64,000 bases of DNA from Leptolyngbya sp. BL0902. Its GTDB lineage: Bacteria > Cyanobacteriota > Cyanobacteriia > Phormidesmidales > Phormidesmidaceae. A model generated the notes under the pieces. It did no database searches, was not told the origin of the DNA, and saw only the letters and a list, made by a program, of their open reading frames with translations. Position numbers and translations under genes: made by a program. Below, one piece after another: positions 6,533 through 59,830 of the stretch (positions are counted from its first letter, which is position 1; every line of letters starts with the position of its first letter). Location of the stretch: positions 3,687,906 to 3,751,905 of the forward strand of contig NZ_CP046155.1 of assembly GCF_016403105.1 (NCBI RefSeq), written 5' to 3'.

Positions 6533-6539
6533 GGGGGGA

Positions 6540-6581
6540 GTCGGGAATCGGGGGTCGGGAGTGGGGAATCGGGAGTCGGGA
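6540..6581. repeat. Heptanucleotide tandem array before gatD
   Basis: Six 7-bp units on the plus strand (GTCGGGA, ATCGGGG, GTCGGGA, GTGGGGA, ATCGGGA, GTCGGGA). On the gatD coding strand the array is C-rich and ends 7 bp before the ATG at 6532. Similar arrays precede the genes at 14134 and 53230. Confidence 0.88.
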
Positions 6582-14140: not shown

Positions 14141-14168
14141 TTGGGGAGTGGGGAGTGGGGAGTGGGGA
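14141..14168. repeat. Heptanucleotide tandem array before the UbiH-like gene
   Basis: Four 7-bp units on the plus strand (TTGGGGA followed by three GTGGGGA). On the coding strand it reads C-rich and ends 6 bp before the ATG at 14134. It belongs to the same kind of array as 6540-6581 and 53169-53231. Confidence 0.88.
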
Positions 14169-50491: not shown

Positions 50492-51069
50492 GATTTTCCT
50501 TCACTTTCAAAAGGTTAGAGGCTAAAAAATAACGCCTGATACTCAATCCAGATAAATCACTCTCTAAACTAATAAAGGCTTCGACAAGCTCCGCTTGAGC
50601 AAAATCAGCCCTTGAATAGAGGGTCAGCCATCAGGATTTAGGCTGAATAGACGTGATGCGTCGTCAAAATGCCCAACGATGGAGCATTAAAAATCACGAT
50701 AATTTCACTAAGCAGGAAAAATCATCGACCTATAGCGATTTTCTCAGAGCTAACCTAAGAGCCATAAAGCCTAGGCTTGTCCTCTTTGTCTCCCTTCGCG
50801 ATTAACACAATAACTAGAATTGCTTAGCCAATTCAGCCTTCATCACTAGCTCAGCGAACTATCCCAAAACAGTAAATTTTTGATCTTATAAAAGTGAGCA
50901 TTGTGGAGTAAATCCAGCCTTCATCGGCCTTACTATATCGGTGAAAATGTGAGGATACTGTGTGCGATATCGTCTCTCTTAACCGTTGGGCTAGCGGATA
51001 GCCCATGAAAATCGTCCCCAAACCCGCTAGAATGCCCCTCAATACAGGCGTTCTGTAGGATTATGGGGT
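50492..51069. other. AT-rich gene-free stretch before nurA-like gene
   Basis: 578 bp without a convincing gene or repeat. It likely holds the promoter of the GT2-GMC transcript to the left and that of the NurA-like gene to the right. Confidence 0.4.
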
Positions 51070-52257
51070 ATGCCAGTGAGTCCGGCCCACATCAAAGCGC
51101 TGCTCGACCAAAAGCGAGAGGCGTTTAGCTCCTTCAACAAAGCCAAGTTTGAATTATTGACCGCCTATCACCAGGCCTGGGCGGAGTTTTCGGCCCTGAC
51201 CCTACCTCAGCAGCAGGATCGTTTAGGCGGTTCCTACCCGGCAGGGGCACTGCCGTTAGAATCGCCAAAGCTGGCCCACAAGGGCGTCATTCCCTTTTTC
51301 TTTGCTGAATCTGCCCCAGCCTCAGAGCGCTGGTCAAACCGGGAGTCGAGCGCCCAGTGGGTGCAGGCGGTGCTGTCGGATGTCACCACCTTTGCGGTGG
51401 ATGGCTCCCAAATTTCACCGGGGAAGGATTTGTCGATTCCCATTGCGCTGATTCAAATCGGCTGGTTTGAGAACCCCCACAGCAAAACTCGGCCCTACCA
51501 AAAGGATGTGCGGGTAGACCTGCTGACGCCCAAAGATTTGGGGCCAAACCCCGCCCAGCCCGTGGAGCGCCGGGTGAATGTTCGCCGCTTTCAAATGGAA
51601 ACCGAACGCCTAGTGGAGTACATCAATGCCTGCGAGGAGCCGGAGCGCACCCTAGTCTTCTTTGATGGGGCGTTGGTTGTTACCTTTGCCGAAGCCTTTG
51701 ACCCCGACAGCCAAAAAGCCTATGTTCAGGCCATGCTAGACCTGCTGCGGGCCAGCGAAGAACGGCGGGTGCCCTTGGTGGGCTATGTGGACACTTCCTA
51801 TGCCCACGACCTCACCACCATGCTGCACCACGGCTGCGGCCTAGAGGCCACCGAGGGCATCCACGATGCTCAGCTCTTGGCACGGCAGATGGACTGGGGA
51901 GATCGGATTCCCCTGTTTCGCTGCGACCGAGGCGGCATCCTGGAGCAGTACGAAGAACAGCGCCACCAAATCGCCTTCACTTACCTCAAAACCACGCGGG
52001 ACGGCTACCCCGTGCGCCTCGAAATGCCTCTATGGATGTGGGAAAACGGCCACCTCCCTCGCTACCTCAACTGGGTGCGCGGCGAGGTAATTGTCGGTGG
52101 CGGCTACCCCTACGGCATCGAAACCGCTGACCAAACCGCCGTGCTGCAAGGGCCAGACAAGCATCTCTTCTTCCGTGTGCTGCAAGATTGGGCCGACAAG
52201 GAAGACATTAATCTGCGCCTCTCTCGCAAAATGGTCAGCAAACAGCGGCGACGGTAG
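51070..52257 (+). CDS. NurA-domain DNA nuclease
   Basis: A 395-aa NurA-family protein. The NurA fold is seen as FAVDGSQISPGKD (Asp111 is a likely metal ligand), FFDGALVVTFAEAF, LVGYVDTSYAHDL, IPLFRCDRG and a C-terminal IETADQTAVLQGPDKHLFF. In archaea NurA is a 5'-3' nuclease working with the HerA translocase in break repair. No HerA gene is within the window. ATG 51070 follows a long AT-rich gap. Confidence 0.88.
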   Translation: MPVSPAHIKALLDQKREAFSSFNKAKFELLTAYHQAWAEFSALTLPQQQDRLGGSYPAGALPLESPKLAHKGVIPFFFAESAPASERWSNRESSAQWVQAVLSDVTTFAVDGSQISPGKDLSIPIALIQIGWFENPHSKTRPYQKDVRVDLLTPKDLGPNPAQPVERRVNVRRFQMETERLVEYINACEEPERTLVFFDGALVVTFAEAFDPDSQKAYVQAMLDLLRASEERRVPLVGYVDTSYAHDLTTMLHHGCGLEATEGIHDAQLLARQMDWGDRIPLFRCDRGGILEQYEEQRHQIAFTYLKTTRDGYPVRLEMPLWMWENGHLPRYLNWVRGEVIVGGGYPYGIETADQTAVLQGPDKHLFFRVLQDWADKEDINLRLSRKMVSKQRRR

Positions 52258-52528
52258 CCATGGGCAAACGGTTCGATGCGGAAGGTTTAGGGCTGTGAGC
52301 CAAAATCCTCCTTTCGACGGAAATAAGCAATTATGCTTACCGAATGCCAAGTCGCTCAAACCGCTGAAAGCCTTTCCCATCAAGGAATCAAGGCACTTAT
52401 GAGAATTGATACATTGGAATAACCCCGCCATGCACATAAGTCTTGTCAATGATGATTCGTTACACAAATTGTAATTTTTTGTTACGTTGGGGATGTGAAG
52501 GCTAATTATTCATTACACGGAGGTCCCC

Positions 52529-53026
52529 ATGACCTACACACTCAACGCTCCTGCTGCCGTCTCCGCTGGCTTGGCCGCTCCGGTATCGAACGCGATTGCT
52601 GCCTTCAAAGGCTTGACCACCGATGAGCAACTCGGCCTGCTCTGGGTGCTCTACGACAACATGGGCCGTTCCATTACCCCGGCGGCTCCGGGGGCGGCTC
52701 GTCTTCAGTTTGCCGAAGGGTTGCTGGCCCAAGTGAAAGCTCTATCCCACACCGAGCAACTTCAGTTCATGCGTGACCTGGTCAACCGCACCAGCACCTC
52801 CCTCACCCGTGCCTACGGCGTGCTGAGCAACAACACCAAGCTGGCCTTCTGGTTCCAATTGGCGGAAGAAATGCGCGGCGGCACCATCGTCCCTGTGCCC
52901 ATTACCTACCAGCTCGGAGCCGCTGGCCAAGCCGTCTTCGGCCAAATCTCCAAACTTGACTTCAACCAGCAAATCACCATCATGCGTCAGGCCGTCGTCA
53001 CCATGGGCGTCGATCCTCTGGCCTAG
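52529..53026 (+). CDS. Helical carotenoid protein (OCP N-terminal domain homologue)
   Basis: A 165-aa protein equivalent to the N-terminal helical domain of orange carotenoid protein, without the linker and C-terminal domain. Carotenoid-contact residues match OCP: Tyr42 (OCP Tyr44), Trp39 (OCP Trp41) and Trp108 (OCP Trp110). Arg153 corresponds to OCP Arg155, needed for phycobilisome interaction and quenching. HCP proteins quench excited states or carry carotenoids. A good ribosome site (GGAGG, about 52519-52523) precedes ATG 52529. The gene for the matching C-terminal domain follows 203 bp later. Confidence 0.94.
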   Translation: MTYTLNAPAAVSAGLAAPVSNAIAAFKGLTTDEQLGLLWVLYDNMGRSITPAAPGAARLQFAEGLLAQVKALSHTEQLQFMRDLVNRTSTSLTRAYGVLSNNTKLAFWFQLAEEMRGGTIVPVPITYQLGAAGQAVFGQISKLDFNQQITIMRQAVVTMGVDPLA

Positions 53027-53168
53027 GCTAGGGAACCTGTCCAGGCCATGATGTCTAGCGAATGAACCAGGGGATGGTTATCCGGGAGCGCCCACAGCCT
53101 CTGCCAGGATACCCATCCCTTTTCCACATTTAGGCAACGTCGGTGGATATCGCCCACCCTACCCCTTG

Positions 53169-53231
53169 TTCCTAATCCCGGATTCCAGATCCCTAACCCC
53201 AGATCCCCAATCCCTAATCCCTAATCCCCAT
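53169..53231. repeat. Heptanucleotide tandem array abutting the CTDH start
   Basis: Nine 7-bp units of the type TCCC(C/T)AA. The last one (TCCCCAT) contains the first bases of the ATG at 53230. Same C-rich type and orientation relative to the gene as the arrays before gatD and the UbiH-like gene. Confidence 0.9.
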
Positions 53232-53625
53232 GGTTCAAACCCTTTCCCAAGCCGCTCTCACCCTAGATCCGTTGATAGCGCAATACTTCGAGCATTTTAA
53301 CCAGGGCAACTATGCTGCTGTGGCCACGCTATTTAGCGATGAAGGGTGTCTTGTCCCGCCCTTTGAGGGGGCCATTGTGGGGCCACCCGCCATTGCCACT
53401 TATCTCGCCCAGGAAGCGGCTGGTATGCAGGCCATTCCCAAGGAAAGTCGCACCCAAGCGACGGAGCACGGTCGCCAAGTGACGGTAAAGGGTCGGGTGA
53501 AGACGCCCCTCTTTTCCGTGAATGTGCAATGGGTTTTCGATATTACCGACACCGATCAGGTTAAGCGGGCCGAAATTAAGCTGCTGGCCTCTCTGCAAGA
53601 GTTGCTGTCGTTTAACCGGGGCTAG
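53230..53625 (+). CDS. OCP C-terminal domain homologue (CTDH)
   Basis: A 131-aa NTF2-fold protein equal to the C-terminal domain of orange carotenoid protein. Tyr19 and Trp101 align with OCP Tyr201 and Trp288, which hold the keto-carotenoid ring. In known CTDHs the protein binds and delivers carotenoid to HCP, a dimer being made through a Cys in some; here the only Cys is Cys40, at a different place. It starts directly within a heptamer array. Its stop codon overlaps that of the convergent gene (53622-54065) by a shared CTAG. Confidence 0.93.
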   Translation: MVQTLSQAALTLDPLIAQYFEHFNQGNYAAVATLFSDEGCLVPPFEGAIVGPPAIATYLAQEAAGMQAIPKESRTQATEHGRQVTVKGRVKTPLFSVNVQWVFDITDTDQVKRAEIKLLASLQELLSFNRG

Positions 53626-54065
53626 GCCGCTTTGGCCGCAACGGGTTGGCCCCAGGCAGCGGTGAGCACCGATTGCCCCAGGCGAAGGTGTTGGGGCGCA
53701 CACTGCCAATCGGGATGGGCCGTCATCAGCAGCGATTCGAGGGACTCGCGATCAAACAGGTGCCACACGGGGGCCGCAGAGTGGTCAGCAAGGGCATAGG
53801 CGTTTTCGGCAACGCAAATAATCGTCACCTGCTCGCCTAGTTCGGCGGGGAGGGTTAGTTCTTGGCCAATGTCTAGCCCTCGAAAGCCGCGAATGGCCTG
53901 CCGGAAGCTGTCAAAATCTGGGGCGCTGAGACCGGGAAGCCGCCGCACCAGGGCTTCTTCACCATTTACCATCACCCAATAGCGCCGCAGGGGGTCAATG
54001 CCCTGCAACCAGACAGACTCGTCATCGAGGCGATACCGGGGCGCTAGGGAGAGTTGGGAGAACAT
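53622..54065 (-). CDS. Hypothetical protein, convergent with CTDH
   Basis: A 147-aa soluble protein without a known domain. It opens MFSQLSLAPRYRLDDESVWLQGIDPLRRYWVMVNG (read in parts) and has a middle segment LTLPAELGEQVTIICVAENAYALA, suggesting an alpha/beta fold. It ends at 53622, so its stop codon interlocks with the CTDH stop. It is divergent from the photolyase gene across a 137-bp AT-rich promoter region. Looks like a conserved cyanobacterial hypothetical, but the role is unknown. Confidence 0.7.
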   Translation of the reverse strand: MFSQLSLAPRYRLDDESVWLQGIDPLRRYWVMVNGEEALVRRLPGLSAPDFDSFRQAIRGFRGLDIGQELTLPAELGEQVTIICVAENAYALADHSAAPVWHLFDRESLESLLMTAHPDWQCAPQHLRLGQSVLTAAWGQPVAAKAA

Positions 54066-54202
54066 CGCTTTCTCAAGGAAAATACCTATCCTTAGCTTGG
54101 TCTAGGTGCCCAAGCTTTCTCAACGTAGCGCAACAAAAGTATAGAAAATCTGAACACACTGTTAACATTTCGTTATAGATAAGTGTTGCGGTGGGGCTAG
54201 CG

Positions 54203-55705
54203 ATGACCGTCGGGATTTGGGTGCTGGGCAATCAACTCTGGGCAGAGCAGGCGGCACTGGCCAGTGTGGCAGGGCGGGATGTGCCTGTGCTGCTGGTGGA
54301 ATCGACCCAATTTGCCCAGGATCGGCCCTATCACCCGCAAAAACTGATCCTAGTGTGGTCGGCCATGCGGCATTTTGCCGAAACCCTCAAGACCGAGGGG
54401 TGGCCCGTTACCTATGCCATCACTGACGACCGGGAAGCGGCCTTACACCAGTGGATTCAGCAGCACCACATCCACGAACTGCGGGTGATGGATCCGGTGG
54501 ATCATCCCTTTTTGGCTTGGCTGCAAGGGCTGGATTTGCCCTGTGCGTTGACGATTGTGGAAAACAATCATTTTCTGTGGAATACTGCGGAGTTTGAAAC
54601 CTGGGCCAGGGGCCGCAAGGGGCTGCTGCTGGAAAGCTTTTATCGAGAAGGGCGGCGGCGATGGGGGGTGCTGATGGCCGGAAATCAGCCGGAGGGGGGC
54701 CAGTGGAACTTTGATAAGGACAACCGCCAACCGCCCAAGGGCAGGCTCAAACCGCCCCAGCCCCGATGGTTTGAGCCGGATGGCATCACCCAGACTGTGA
54801 TCGAAAAGGTCGAAAACCTAGACATCCCCACCTTTGGCCAAGCGACCCCCTTTCGCTGGGGCGTCACCCGCGACCAGGCACTCCAGGTGCTCGAAACCTT
54901 TGTGGCCGAACGCCTGGAGACCTTTGGCCCCTACCAAGATGCCATGGTGACGGGGGAGGAAACGATGTGGCACGCCCTACTGTCGCCCTACCTCAACCTG
55001 GGGCTGTTGCAGCCCATGGAGGTGATTCAGCGCGTTGAGGATGCCTATCGCAGCGGCGAGTTTCCCCTCAGCAGCGTGGAAGGATTCCTTCGCCAAGTGC
55101 TGGGCTGGCGGGAATATATGCGCGGGCTGTATCACTACTTTGGGGCCGACTATGCCCAGAGTAACGGGTTCGGCCACCATCACCCCCTGCCCGATTTCTT
55201 TTGGACGGGGGACACCCCCATGAACTGCCTGCACCAGGTCATCGACCAAACCCAGCGCACCGGATACGCCCACCACATCCAGCGGTTGATGATTCTCAGC
55301 AACTTCGCCCTAATTGCCGGACTGAACCCCCAGGAAGTGGAGTCCTGGTTCCATGCGGCGTTTATCGACGCCTACGACTGGGTCATGCAAACCAATGTGC
55401 TGGGCATGGGCCTATTTGCCGATGGCGGACGACTGGCCTCCAAACCCTATGCGGCCTCCGCCAACTACGTCAACCGCATGGGCGACTACTGCAAAGGCTG
55501 CCGCTACAACCCCAAAGAACGCACCGGGGAAAACGCCTGTCCGTTCAACTTCTTTTATTGGGATTTTCTCCATCGCCATCGCGGCACCCTACAAGCCCAG
55601 GGCCGCATGAGCTTTATTCTCAAAAACCTCGATAAAATGGGGGCGGAGGAATTAGCCGCGATTCAACACCAGGCTGAGGCTTGGTACCAGGCTGTCGAGG
55701 GGTGA
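54203..55705 (+). CDS. Fe-S photolyase/cryptochrome (FeS-BCP family, PhrB-like)
   Basis: A 500-aa member of the bacterial (6-4) photolyase/CryB group. Four cysteines that would hold a [4Fe-4S] cluster are at 342 (MNCLHQ), 430, 433 and 446 (YCKGCRYNPKERTGENACPF); their spacing equals that of PhrB. The FAD-binding region lies between about 250 and 440 with EGFLRQVLGWREYMRG and ASANYVNRMGDYC. The antenna in this family is usually dimethyl-lumazine, a riboflavin precursor. ATG 54203 is preferred over GTG 54191. It is divergent from the hypothetical gene. Confidence 0.92.
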   Translation: MTVGIWVLGNQLWAEQAALASVAGRDVPVLLVESTQFAQDRPYHPQKLILVWSAMRHFAETLKTEGWPVTYAITDDREAALHQWIQQHHIHELRVMDPVDHPFLAWLQGLDLPCALTIVENNHFLWNTAEFETWARGRKGLLLESFYREGRRRWGVLMAGNQPEGGQWNFDKDNRQPPKGRLKPPQPRWFEPDGITQTVIEKVENLDIPTFGQATPFRWGVTRDQALQVLETFVAERLETFGPYQDAMVTGEETMWHALLSPYLNLGLLQPMEVIQRVEDAYRSGEFPLSSVEGFLRQVLGWREYMRGLYHYFGADYAQSNGFGHHHPLPDFFWTGDTPMNCLHQVIDQTQRTGYAHHIQRLMILSNFALIAGLNPQEVESWFHAAFIDAYDWVMQTNVLGMGLFADGGRLASKPYAASANYVNRMGDYCKGCRYNPKERTGENACPFNFFYWDFLHRHRGTLQAQGRMSFILKNLDKMGAEELAAIQHQAEAWYQAVEG

Positions 55706-55731
55706 ATCGACCAAAACCGAGGATCTGTAGG

Positions 55732-56277
55732 ATGGGCACTCAGCATGCTATCAAGGGCATCGGCCTGATCGTGGTGTATGCCTCCCTGAGCTGGCTCGCC
55801 TGGGGGTGCAACCCAGCGGATCAACCCCCTCGCGACAGTCATCAAGGCTTCGAGCAAAATGGTCAGCTAGCTCTCTACCAGAGCGAGGCCTTGGGCGTTA
55901 GCTTTCCCCTGCCAGAGAGCACCTACGTTCAGGCCCAGGGCCAACGGCTCACCCTCTGGACAAAGGCCGACTATCAGCGCCGGGAGGAATTTATCGAAGC
56001 AACACCGCTCTCGATAGTGGCGGAGGAAAATCCAGACCGTCTCACGGTTCAAGCCTGGGTCGCGGCCCAAGGCTATCAACTCCTAGGAGACCTTGAAGAC
56101 CAAGCTGTTGGGGGGTATCCAGGGCTGCGATTTACCTGGCTAGGGATGTGGCCATACACCTCCGTCGTCGTGGCCCACCCAAACCGAGGAACCATCATTA
56201 CCATCACCTGGGACAACGACAGTTTGGACTATCAAGATTGGTTTGAAGCCATCATTGCAGGGTTAGCGTTGAGGTAA
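55732..56277 (+). CDS. Predicted lipoprotein, unknown function
   Basis: A 181-aa protein with an N-terminal hydrophobic segment ending LSWLAWGC, a lipobox-like cysteine, followed by a disordered Asp/Gln-rich stretch and a beta-rich domain (LGVSFPLPESTYVQAQGQRL, GYPGLRFTWLGMWPY). The lipobox is non-classical. It starts at ATG 55732, 27 bp after the photolyase stop; its reading frame may begin earlier (55681) inside the photolyase end, but the signal peptide argues for 55732. Probably co-transcribed with the photolyase. Confidence 0.75.
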   Translation: MGTQHAIKGIGLIVVYASLSWLAWGCNPADQPPRDSHQGFEQNGQLALYQSEALGVSFPLPESTYVQAQGQRLTLWTKADYQRREEFIEATPLSIVAEENPDRLTVQAWVAAQGYQLLGDLEDQAVGGYPGLRFTWLGMWPYTSVVVAHPNRGTIITITWDNDSLDYQDWFEAIIAGLALR

Positions 56278-56318
56278 TGGCCCCTATGGATCTAGCCCGC
56301 CTTGGATAGCCAAGGGCG

Positions 56319-57038
56319 CTAGGGCAGGGTGAGGTCAATCCCGTCGGGGAGTTGTGCCTCTGTAAGATCAGCTTGGGTGAAGACAGCCCCCGTGAGGTCG
56401 GCCCCCCGCAGGTTAGCCCCTTGCAGGTTGGCCCCCGTAAAGTCGGTGTAGCTGAGGTCGGCCCCTTGCAGGTTGGCTTGGCGGAGGTCGGTTTTGGGGG
56501 CATCGGGCCGGAAGCCTTGGCCTAGGCGGGCGCGGCAGAGCTTGGCCCCTTGCAGGTTGGCCCCTGTCAGGCAGGCTCCGCTGAGGTGGGCATAGCTGAG
56601 GTTGGCCTCACTCAGGTTGGCCCCGTTCAGGTTGGTGGCTTGGTCAGAACTGGGGCGCAGATCAGCTTCGATCAGCAGGGCGCGGGAGAGATCGACTCCC
56701 TGAAAATTCACGCCGCAGAGGATGGCCTTGACTAGGTTGGCCCCCGCCAGGTTGGCCTGGGTGAATACCGCCCCGCTGAGGTCGGCGTCCCGCAGTTGGG
56801 CCTGGGGACATTGGGCCTGGGTAAAGTCGGCCCCCCACAGCAGGGCTTCACTGAAATCTGCCTGGGCAAAGGTGCTACGAGCACAATGGGCACGGCCCAA
56901 CCGAGCCTGCCGGAAATCGCAGCGGCTAAAGTTGGCCTCGCAGAGGATGGCCTGAATCAGGTCAACCTCCAGCAGATTCAGCCCTGCAAAGGTGCGTTCC
57001 CCAGCCCGATACTGAGCTAAAAGCTCCCCAGCGTCCAT
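56319..57038 (-). CDS. Pentapeptide-repeat protein
   Basis: A 239-aa protein made mainly of A(D/N)LXX repeats, for example ADLSGAVFTQANLAGANLVKA and LRQANLQGADLSYTDFTGANL (read in parts), which fold as a right-handed quadrilateral beta-helix. One insertion with LRPSSDQATN breaks the register. ATG 57038 (MDAGELLAQYRAGERTF) starts a cyanobacterial-type N-terminus; the upstream extension to 57161 is unlikely. Function of these cyanobacterial proteins is unknown. Confidence 0.88.
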   Translation of the reverse strand: MDAGELLAQYRAGERTFAGLNLLEVDLIQAILCEANFSRCDFRQARLGRAHCARSTFAQADFSEALLWGADFTQAQCPQAQLRDADLSGAVFTQANLAGANLVKAILCGVNFQGVDLSRALLIEADLRPSSDQATNLNGANLSEANLSYAHLSGACLTGANLQGAKLCRARLGQGFRPDAPKTDLRQANLQGADLSYTDFTGANLQGANLRGADLTGAVFTQADLTEAQLPDGIDLTLP

Positions 57039-58411: not shown

Positions 58412-59830
58412 CTAGGATAACCACTCCAGCGTGGCCTCTTCCTTGGTGTTGGTACGGCGGTCGAGGGTAGTCCGGTCGAAGGTCATGTGGATGGTGCGGG
58501 TTTGCTCACCATCGGCGGCCACGGCCATGATCGGAAAGTCGAGGTTGCCGTCCTGGAAGGACATCTGGAACCGGAAAGTGCCGTCGGGGTTGAGCTTGAT
58601 CGGCTTGCCGCCAATGGTGACGGTGGCGTCGGGTTCGGTGGCCCCGTAGACGATCAGCTCGGCGTCGGCAATGAGCCAGAACTTGCGGGGGCGAATGGGG
58701 GGCGCAGAGGCCGAGAAGCCCAGGCCAAAGCCCGACATGGTGAGCCCCGACATGGTGAGGGGATAGCCCGACATCGTGGGCACCGACCCCATCGGCACCG
58801 CCGCCGTGGCCCACAGGCCCGCCCCAGAGGGGAAGACGTAGGAACTCACGGCTTGTTCGGCCATCAGGGAACCGGGCACATGCTGGATGGAACCCGCCAC
58901 ATGGACGGCACCGCCCACCTGCTGAATAGATCCGGCGACGTGCTGCACCGAACCCGCCACGTGCTGAATGGAACCGGGCACCTGCTGAATCGAACCCGCC
59001 ACATGCTGACCGGAACCAGGAACGTGCTGCATGGAACCATACAGAGAACCTGCGACTCGCTGGGCTTCGGCATCCTGGGCCATGGCATACATACGGTCGT
59101 AAACGCCCTGGGCAGCGGCTCCGGTACGGCTGGGGTGGCGCAGGGCCATCAGGGTCTTGCCGCGCAGATCGGCCTGCCAATCCACGGTCATAAAGTGGTC
59201 TTCAATCCAATCCGACGGATAGACCGGGGGAATGTGGACGGGCAGGGAACGGGCCAGCACCAGCCAGCGGCCATCGTTGCAGATATAGCCAATTTCCGCC
59301 ACATAGTCGCGGTCGCTAACGGGGATGGGCAGGTACCAATCCCGCGCCATTTCGTCGCATTCGTACTGTTGCAAGCTGTGGGGGGCTTGGTAGTTGAGGT
59401 CAATGTCGGTGACATCGTAGAACCGCAGGGCCAACCGCACCCCGCCCTGGCGGCGCAGGTCGTCCTTATGCTCGGCAGGGATATCCCAATAGGCGTAGGC
59501 CCACTGGGGATCGCGGGGCATCAACACAATGCGGCTCTCGCCATAGCCGCTGGGCAAGTCGGGCAGCCCCTCATCTACCGAAGTGAGCGCCTCCAAAGGG
59601 GGCAGATCAGGGGCCATGTACTTTGACGCTTCAACCTGGGTTTGGGCCGCAGCGGCGGACGTGACCACGCTAGGGGCCGGAATTTGCCCCCGCTGGGCAT
59701 CAATGCTCCGAATCGCGTCGATTAGCTCGGTTTTACGCATCCGGCTATAGCGAGACACCTCATATTCGCTGGCAACCTTGCGGAGTTGCCGCAGGGTCAT
59801 GTCTTCTAAGGGAGGGCGTTGCTGGGACAT
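58412..59830 (-). CDS. Rho-N/DUF4912 protein with a heptapeptide-repeat linker
   Basis: A 472-aa protein found in cyanobacteria. N-terminal Rho-N (SAP-like) domain (MTLRQLRKVASEYEVSRYS, 11-29), a DUF4912 domain (about 98-215, with DPQWAYAYWDIP and DRDYVAEIGY), then residues 259-321 formed of GS-x-QHVA/P heptapeptides (encoded at 58868-59056), a MSG-rich segment (MSGYPLTMSGLTMSGFG), and a further DUF4912-like C-terminus. The Rho-N domain suggests nucleic acid binding; the rest is uncharacterised. ATG 59830 is clear. A 9-base motif recurs in its upstream region. Confidence 0.85.
   Translation of the reverse strand: MSQQRPPLEDMTLRQLRKVASEYEVSRYSRMRKTELIDAIRSIDAQRGQIPAPSVVTSAAAAQTQVEASKYMAPDLPPLEALTSVDEGLPDLPSGYGESRIVLMPRDPQWAYAYWDIPAEHKDDLRRQGGVRLALRFYDVTDIDLNYQAPHSLQQYECDEMARDWYLPIPVSDRDYVAEIGYICNDGRWLVLARSLPVHIPPVYPSDWIEDHFMTVDWQADLRGKTLMALRHPSRTGAAAQGVYDRMYAMAQDAEAQRVAGSLYGSMQHVPGSGQHVAGSIQQVPGSIQHVAGSVQHVAGSIQQVGGAVHVAGSIQHVPGSLMAEQAVSSYVFPSGAGLWATAAVPMGSVPTMSGYPLTMSGLTMSGFGLGFSASAPPIRPRKFWLIADAELIVYGATEPDATVTIGGKPIKLNPDGTFRFQMSFQDGNLDFPIMAVAADGEQTRTIHMTFDRTTLDRRTNTKEEATLEWLS
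58868..59056. repeat. 21-bp coding repeat (heptapeptides) in the DUF4912 gene
   Basis: About nine units of seven codons; protein units include VAGSIQH, VPGSIQH, VAGSVQH and QVGGAVH. Units vary in a few positions, and the in-frame period suggests slippage-driven expansion. Confidence 0.85.

Follow-up and report, generated by a model that had tools for sequence, protein, structure and literature searches.

We consider it very likely that U147, an uncharacterised 147-aa protein encoded tail to tail with CTDH in Leptolyngbya sp. BL0902, is associated with the HCP4/5-CTDH system of cyanobacteria. We further consider it probable that this quenching system has in U147 a dedicated third component, whose likeliest role would be control of HCP quenching or loading; the HCP5-like HCP, CTDH and U147 may together form a three-gene photoprotection cassette. 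The HCP/CTDH pair is known, and the proposal of U147 as its dedicated third component is new here: no mention of it in this capacity was found in the open-access literature. The U147-HCP association rests on computation, and the mechanism is one that we infer.

The locus lies in a 64,000-nucleotide stretch of the genome (hereinafter designated the window). Its features, by position in the window, are:

52529–53026, plus strand: HCP, 165 aa, HCP4/HCP5 type with HCP5-like numbering (Carot_N match, PDB 8qx5, marker residues).
53171–53230, plus strand: heptamer array between HCP and CTDH (a 7-mer in about 8 copies), which is not conserved with the system.
53230–53625, plus strand: CTDH (CCP), 131 aa, Phe-type, clade 1 / CCP1 (All4940 chains, Phe95).
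53622–53625, no strand: CTAG, in which the CTDH and U147 stops overlap (read from the window bases).
53622–54065, minus strand: U147, 147 aa, uncharacterised, convergent with CTDH (conserved family, dN/dS 0.10).
54138–54165, minus strand: sigma-70-like promoter match 5′ of U147 (TTAACA-16-TATACT, 10/12).
54191–55705, plus strand: DPRP / Fe-S-type photolyase, a local neighbour outside the conserved set (Pfam DPRP, E 7e-73).

An earlier note on this DNA had read an HCP, a CTDH and a convergent 147-aa ORF at these coordinates, and all three are present, as is the sharing of CTAG by the stops of the latter two (bases 53622–53625 are CTAG). Sigma-70-like matches number 2 in the searched region against 1.1 expected; both hexamers upstream of U147 are also present in L061, the locus of an 86%-identical relative. 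No Rfam family was found in 51000–56500 of the window.

By its sequence, U147 is a real gene under purifying selection, with dN/dS between the window and L061 of 0.10 for U147, 0.125 for HCP and 0.20 for CTDH. An alignment of 25 rows (A1) has 28 invariant columns and one of 63 rows (A2) has 18, including R10, Y11, L13, D14, W19, H102, L103 and W120, and all 80 best loci (of 148 relatives in the genome-contig scan) bear cyanobacterial titles. The earlier description of the 147-aa gene as uncharacterised stands: searches of Pfam, NCBIfam, PHROGs and PDB sequences returned weak, scattered matches and no known family, and the FRP family PF18032 neither matches the window protein nor appears among the families matched by 25 members. 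Two AlphaFold2 models were obtained with pLDDT 80.1 and 82.6, the 82.6 model being mixed alpha/beta, and Foldseek gave no match to them at E ≤ 0.001. The best VIA-align results were Z 5.8 over 66 residues (rmsd 3.5) for the first model and Z 4.4 over 85 residues (rmsd 3.7) for the second. Matches to YkuJ, LcpA and YceI/polyisoprenoid-binding folds (VIA Z 4 to 6) were set aside because such Z values are common. With no clear fold match, the model therefore neither favours nor counters a role of U147 in HCP control.

The earlier note would have counted itself refuted had the 147-aa gene never been found beside CTDH in other genomes; the gene does recur there, and the refutation fails. Among 291 genomes of the class, 56 carry U147; in 29 of these 56 it lies less than 200 bp from CTDH, and 29 of the 29 pairs are convergent. 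In the named loci (the best 80 of 148 relatives), a convergent CTDH lies within 1 kb of U147 in 66 of 80, and 56 of these 66 linked loci also have HCP. The median gap in the linked loci is 15.5 bp, 63 of 66 being at ≤200 bp, and the loci span 11 orders by NCBI ranks, with nine loci having no named order (best 80 of 148 relatives). The four-base overlap of the U147 and CTDH stops is found in 12 of the 66 (10 TTAA and 2 CTAG; best 80 of 148 relatives); the interlock is therefore recurrent and not required. Convergent genes are not co-transcribed, and their linkage carries less weight than an operon would.

Linkage is relaxed in some genomes. In G288, about 200 bp separate HCP from U147 in a tail-to-tail arrangement, and in G039 both are present and unlinked; neither genome has a CTDH among the matches listed. 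Genus g37 has small genomes, 11 of which carry U147, and here the gene lies far from HCP and CTDH or on other contigs. Six unlinked U147 loci (L156–L161) have no common neighbour theme; L157 has NusB and DHQ synthase. At L098:4733-7799 and about 25 more Nostocales loci, U147 is preceded on its own strand by genes for a response regulator, a response regulator-GAF-SpoIIE phosphatase and HATPase_c_2 (RsbW-like). The group is a possible partner-switching module, and U147 would there stand in a setting of stress signalling.

This Nostocales arrangement, with U147 downstream of the signalling genes, and the stop overlap in 12 of the 66 linked loci would both suit a reading in which U147 has its function in another part of light harvesting or of the stress response, its distribution is shared with HCP ecologically or phylogenetically, and the pair is synteny held by the 3′ overlap. 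We regard it as decidedly unlikely, since most linked pairs have no overlap, the spacing over all of them ranges from −4 to 539 bp, neighbours other than CTDH and HCP are common to fewer U147 loci than these two (best 80 of 148 relatives), and the co-occurrence described below persists in unlinked genomes and within genera.

Two further elements of the locus proved to be local accidents. The heptamer array that had been noted as the CTDH leader is real (53171–53230) but not conserved: it is missing from the homologous HCP-CTDH spacer of L061, and the pattern TAATCCCNAATCCC has 5 occurrences genome-wide, of which four overlap one another within a different array, with its backwards control also at 5. 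It was accordingly rejected as a conserved leader. Heptamer-type tandem repeats are common in cyanobacterial genomes, and the window holds them at 6536–6581 and 14142–14168 as well as in the spacer; at 58868–59038, a 21/42/63-bp repeat array lies in a 472-aa ORF on the minus strand with HVAGSIQQV-type repeats. The suggestion of a light or photoprotection cluster extending to the Fe-S photolyase was likewise abandoned, since only one of the 80 named loci (best 80 of 148 relatives), that of the closest relative, has the photolyase close to U147, and PF04244 is equally common with and without U147 (43 of 56 U147 genomes and 183 of 235 others, p 0.86).

The window HCP matches PF09150 (Carot_N) over residues 16–162 of 165 (E 7.9e-60) and is a standalone protein with no C-terminal NTF2 domain. 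Its nearest PDB chains are 8qx5 (E 2e-51) and 9h41; because the printed residues of 8qx5 agree with those of the HCP of L108 (Nostoc parmelioides), which adjoins an All4940-like CTDH, we infer that 8qx5 is Anabaena HCP4. PMC12059629 names two residues as marks of HCP4 and HCP5, Arg60 and Phe147 in OCP numbering, which correspond to R58 and F145 in HCP5. The window HCP has both R58 and F145, together with W39, Y42, W108 and R153. In a quick tree with SH-aLRT support, which contains no named HCP5 reference, it groups with the cassette HCPs.

The best PDB match of the window CTDH is the All4940 CTDH (E 2.4e-29). PMC7512017 and PMC6123778 distinguish two kinds of CTDH, Cys-type (clade 2, CCP2) and Phe-type (clade 1, CCP1); in the Cys-type All4940, a disulfide blocks carotenoid transfer. 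The window CTDH does not have the conserved Cys of clade 2 / CCP2; Phe95 occupies the position of All4940 Cys103, which places the protein in clade 1 / CCP1. The earlier view of HCP and CTDH as a pair of known kind agrees with this combination of an HCP5-like HCP and a Phe-type CTDH. The CTDH is Phe-type in 40 of the 66 linked named loci and Cys-type in 26, 25 of the latter being Nostocales (best 80 of 148 relatives). Since both types adjoin U147 (Cys-type in 26 of 67 and Phe-type in 41 of 67 with the window included), U147 is not tied to the redox cysteine.

The pocket residues listed in the earlier note, W39, Y42, W108 and R153 of HCP and Y19 and W101 of CTDH, are all found in the window proteins, and Y19 and W101 are invariant in 67 of 67 CTDHs (the window and the linked loci from the best 80 of 148 relatives). 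As far as residues can tell, the carotenoid pocket is retained in both proteins. Such retention, together with the proposal that HCP4 and CTDH were the progenitors of OCP (PMC6123778), would also fit a reassembly of HCP and CTDH into an OCP-like two-domain light switch, on which the earlier note had laid its emphasis, with U147 incidental to it. This is very improbable, since CTDH appears in the same text as carotenoid donor to HCP4 and the profile of U147 is not that of an incidental gene.

PF09150 in the window genome is represented only by this HCP and one divergent standalone copy. The second match (G000:C1:1810555-1810977, 74.9 bits) has an in-frame TAG inside it and is possibly a decayed or shortened HCP. 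There is one CTDH among the matches listed and no FRP match. Because the genome has two standalone PF09150 matches, one CTDH and no FRP, no fused OCP was seen in the PF09150 and CTDH searches. Across the sample, genomes that have the Arg58-HCP/U147 set carry FRP less often than the rest (13 of 47 versus 141 of 244, p 2e-4).

The window resembles the Anabaena HCP4/All4940 pair in having HCP and then CTDH adjacent, the Arg and Phe markers of HCP4/5 and a CTDH of the All4940 kind. It differs from that system in its Phe-type CTDH, All4940 being Cys-type, so that the disulfide control of All4940 is missing, and in a genome where neither a fused OCP nor an FRP was matched. Judging from the near relative L108, U147 is predicted downstream of all4940 in Anabaena sp. 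PCC 7120 as well. HCP5 systems such as that of Thermosynechococcus, a strain without OCP, share with the window the R58/F145 numbering, a Phe-type CTDH and the finding of no fused OCP. A difference may lie in gene order, since in the g37 genomes, which seem Thermosynechococcus-like in size and HCP/CTDH content, U147 is distant from the pair.

The presence of U147 follows that of one HCP type. Of the 291 genomes, 47 have U147 together with a standalone HCP close to that of the window (E ≤ 1e-43 to the window HCP as query), 9 have U147 only, 9 such an HCP only and 226 neither (Fisher 8e-36); five genomes with a fused OCP as sole match were dropped, and keeping them gives 14 HCP-only genomes instead of 9. 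For U147 and CTDH, the counts are 52 both, 4 U147 only, 69 CTDH only and 166 neither, the CTDH set comprising at least 121 genomes when an open frame of ≤260 aa is taken as CTDH and a longer one as fused OCP. At HCP position 58, all 47 genomes that combine U147 with such an HCP have Arg (47 of 47), against 0 of 13 U147-less genomes examined, which have E, G, N, S, T or A instead. These 13 are the 9 HCP-only genomes and four more among the L108-query matches listed (to about 5e-45); the weakest Arg58 HCPs score 9.1e-45 and 1.2e-47 in the window-query and L108-query searches, so unseen Arg58 HCPs below the cuts are possible. Among the window, named and further loci, Arg58 is present in 61 of 61 HCPs of U147 genomes versus 0 of 12 same-locus paralogues.

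The Arg58 HCP type may be largely one clade, so that the 47 of 47 are not 47 independent events. The association also appears among close relatives. Within families, the pooled CMH z is 7.45 over five families, with strata tallied by eye from the genomes listed in the U147, CTDH and HCP searches. Eleven genera vary in U147, and Arg58-HCP varies alike in 10, ties in 1 and varies oppositely in 0 (sign test 0.002), where a genus varying alike has at least one genome pair differing in the same direction, the tie (g8) has Arg58-HCP on neither side, and absence of Arg58-HCP from a U147-less genome means absence among the HCP matches listed. The co-occurrence holds without linkage, as in the 11 small genomes of genus g37; each of these has a single HCP/OCP match at E ≤ 1e-36 among the matches listed, and U147 thus seems not to need a fused OCP.

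The HCPs of six genus g4 genomes (L142, L143, L144, L145, L147 and L148, of G046, G071, G103, G141, G223 and G287, respectively) have no Arg58, and these genomes have no U147. The quick tree unites these HCPs, with good support, in a single long-branched clade whose position inside the cassette HCPs is moderately supported; this suggests a joint loss of Arg58 and U147 in the clade. The lineage may have changed HCP function.

Exceptions occur on the U147 side. In genus g1, seven genomes have CTDH and U147 as a pair and no Arg58-type HCP, which counts against a strict dependence of U147 on Arg58-HCP. U147 is also present without a standalone Arg58-type HCP in G281, an 87%-complete genome, and in G120 (L163), where there is no standalone HCP and a fused OCP (open frame 340 aa) has Arg at the equivalent of HCP Arg58. 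Given these cases, the partner of U147 could be CTDH or something else.

A CTDH-centred role is the main rival to control of HCP4/5 quenching: U147 would be a partner of CTDH in carotenoid uptake, dimer control or recycling, and not a regulator of HCP quenching. The g1 genomes fit this, as does the position of U147 tail to tail with CTDH rather than with HCP. It is nonetheless fairly unlikely in our estimation, given that 69 of the at least 121 CTDH genomes are without U147, that G039 and G288 have HCP and U147 with no CTDH among the matches listed, and that U147 stands beside Cys- and Phe-type CTDHs alike, 26 and 41 of 67.

That a small conserved protein tracks the Arg58 type of HCP, the one facing the phycobilisome, speaks for a part in controlling how HCP docks or is loaded. 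CTDH takes ketocarotenoid from the membrane and hands it over to HCP4. In the mechanism that we propose for the cassette, CTDH would load HCP with ketocarotenoid, and the loaded HCP would quench the phycobilisome without a light switch. U147, a presumably soluble protein, would contact the phycobilisome-docked HCP near its Arg58 face and thereby release or block quenching; alternatively, U147 and CTDH may govern the loading or unloading of HCP. U147 might thus serve HCP4/5 as FRP serves OCP, the contact, its site and the direction of control all being presumptive. The proposed analogy draws on the likeness of two small, pigment-free proteins, each tracking one type of quencher. They differ in that U147 has no PF18032 match and a mixed alpha/beta model, whereas the FRP fold is helical, and FRP is less frequent in Arg58-HCP/U147 genomes than in the others. 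A role of U147 in controlling HCP4/5 quenching is possible, if short of probable. Rather doubtful, and offered tentatively, is the fuller proposal that U147 is the cognate control protein of quenching HCPs, a counterpart of FRP with an unrelated fold that recognises the Arg58 face of HCP4/HCP5 and replaces light control.

The HCP5-like/CTDH/U147 set may be the only OCP-type phycobilisome protection of the window genome, given that neither a fused OCP nor an FRP was matched there. In vitro, HCP4 and HCP5 loaded with carotenoid are strong quenchers of phycobilisomes that have no light switch, and how this quenching is elicited and controlled in cells is left open in the discussion of PMC12059629. 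U147 would be a concrete candidate for that control, also in genomes without a fused OCP, and its distribution provides a sequence rule by which an Arg58-type HCP predicts U147.
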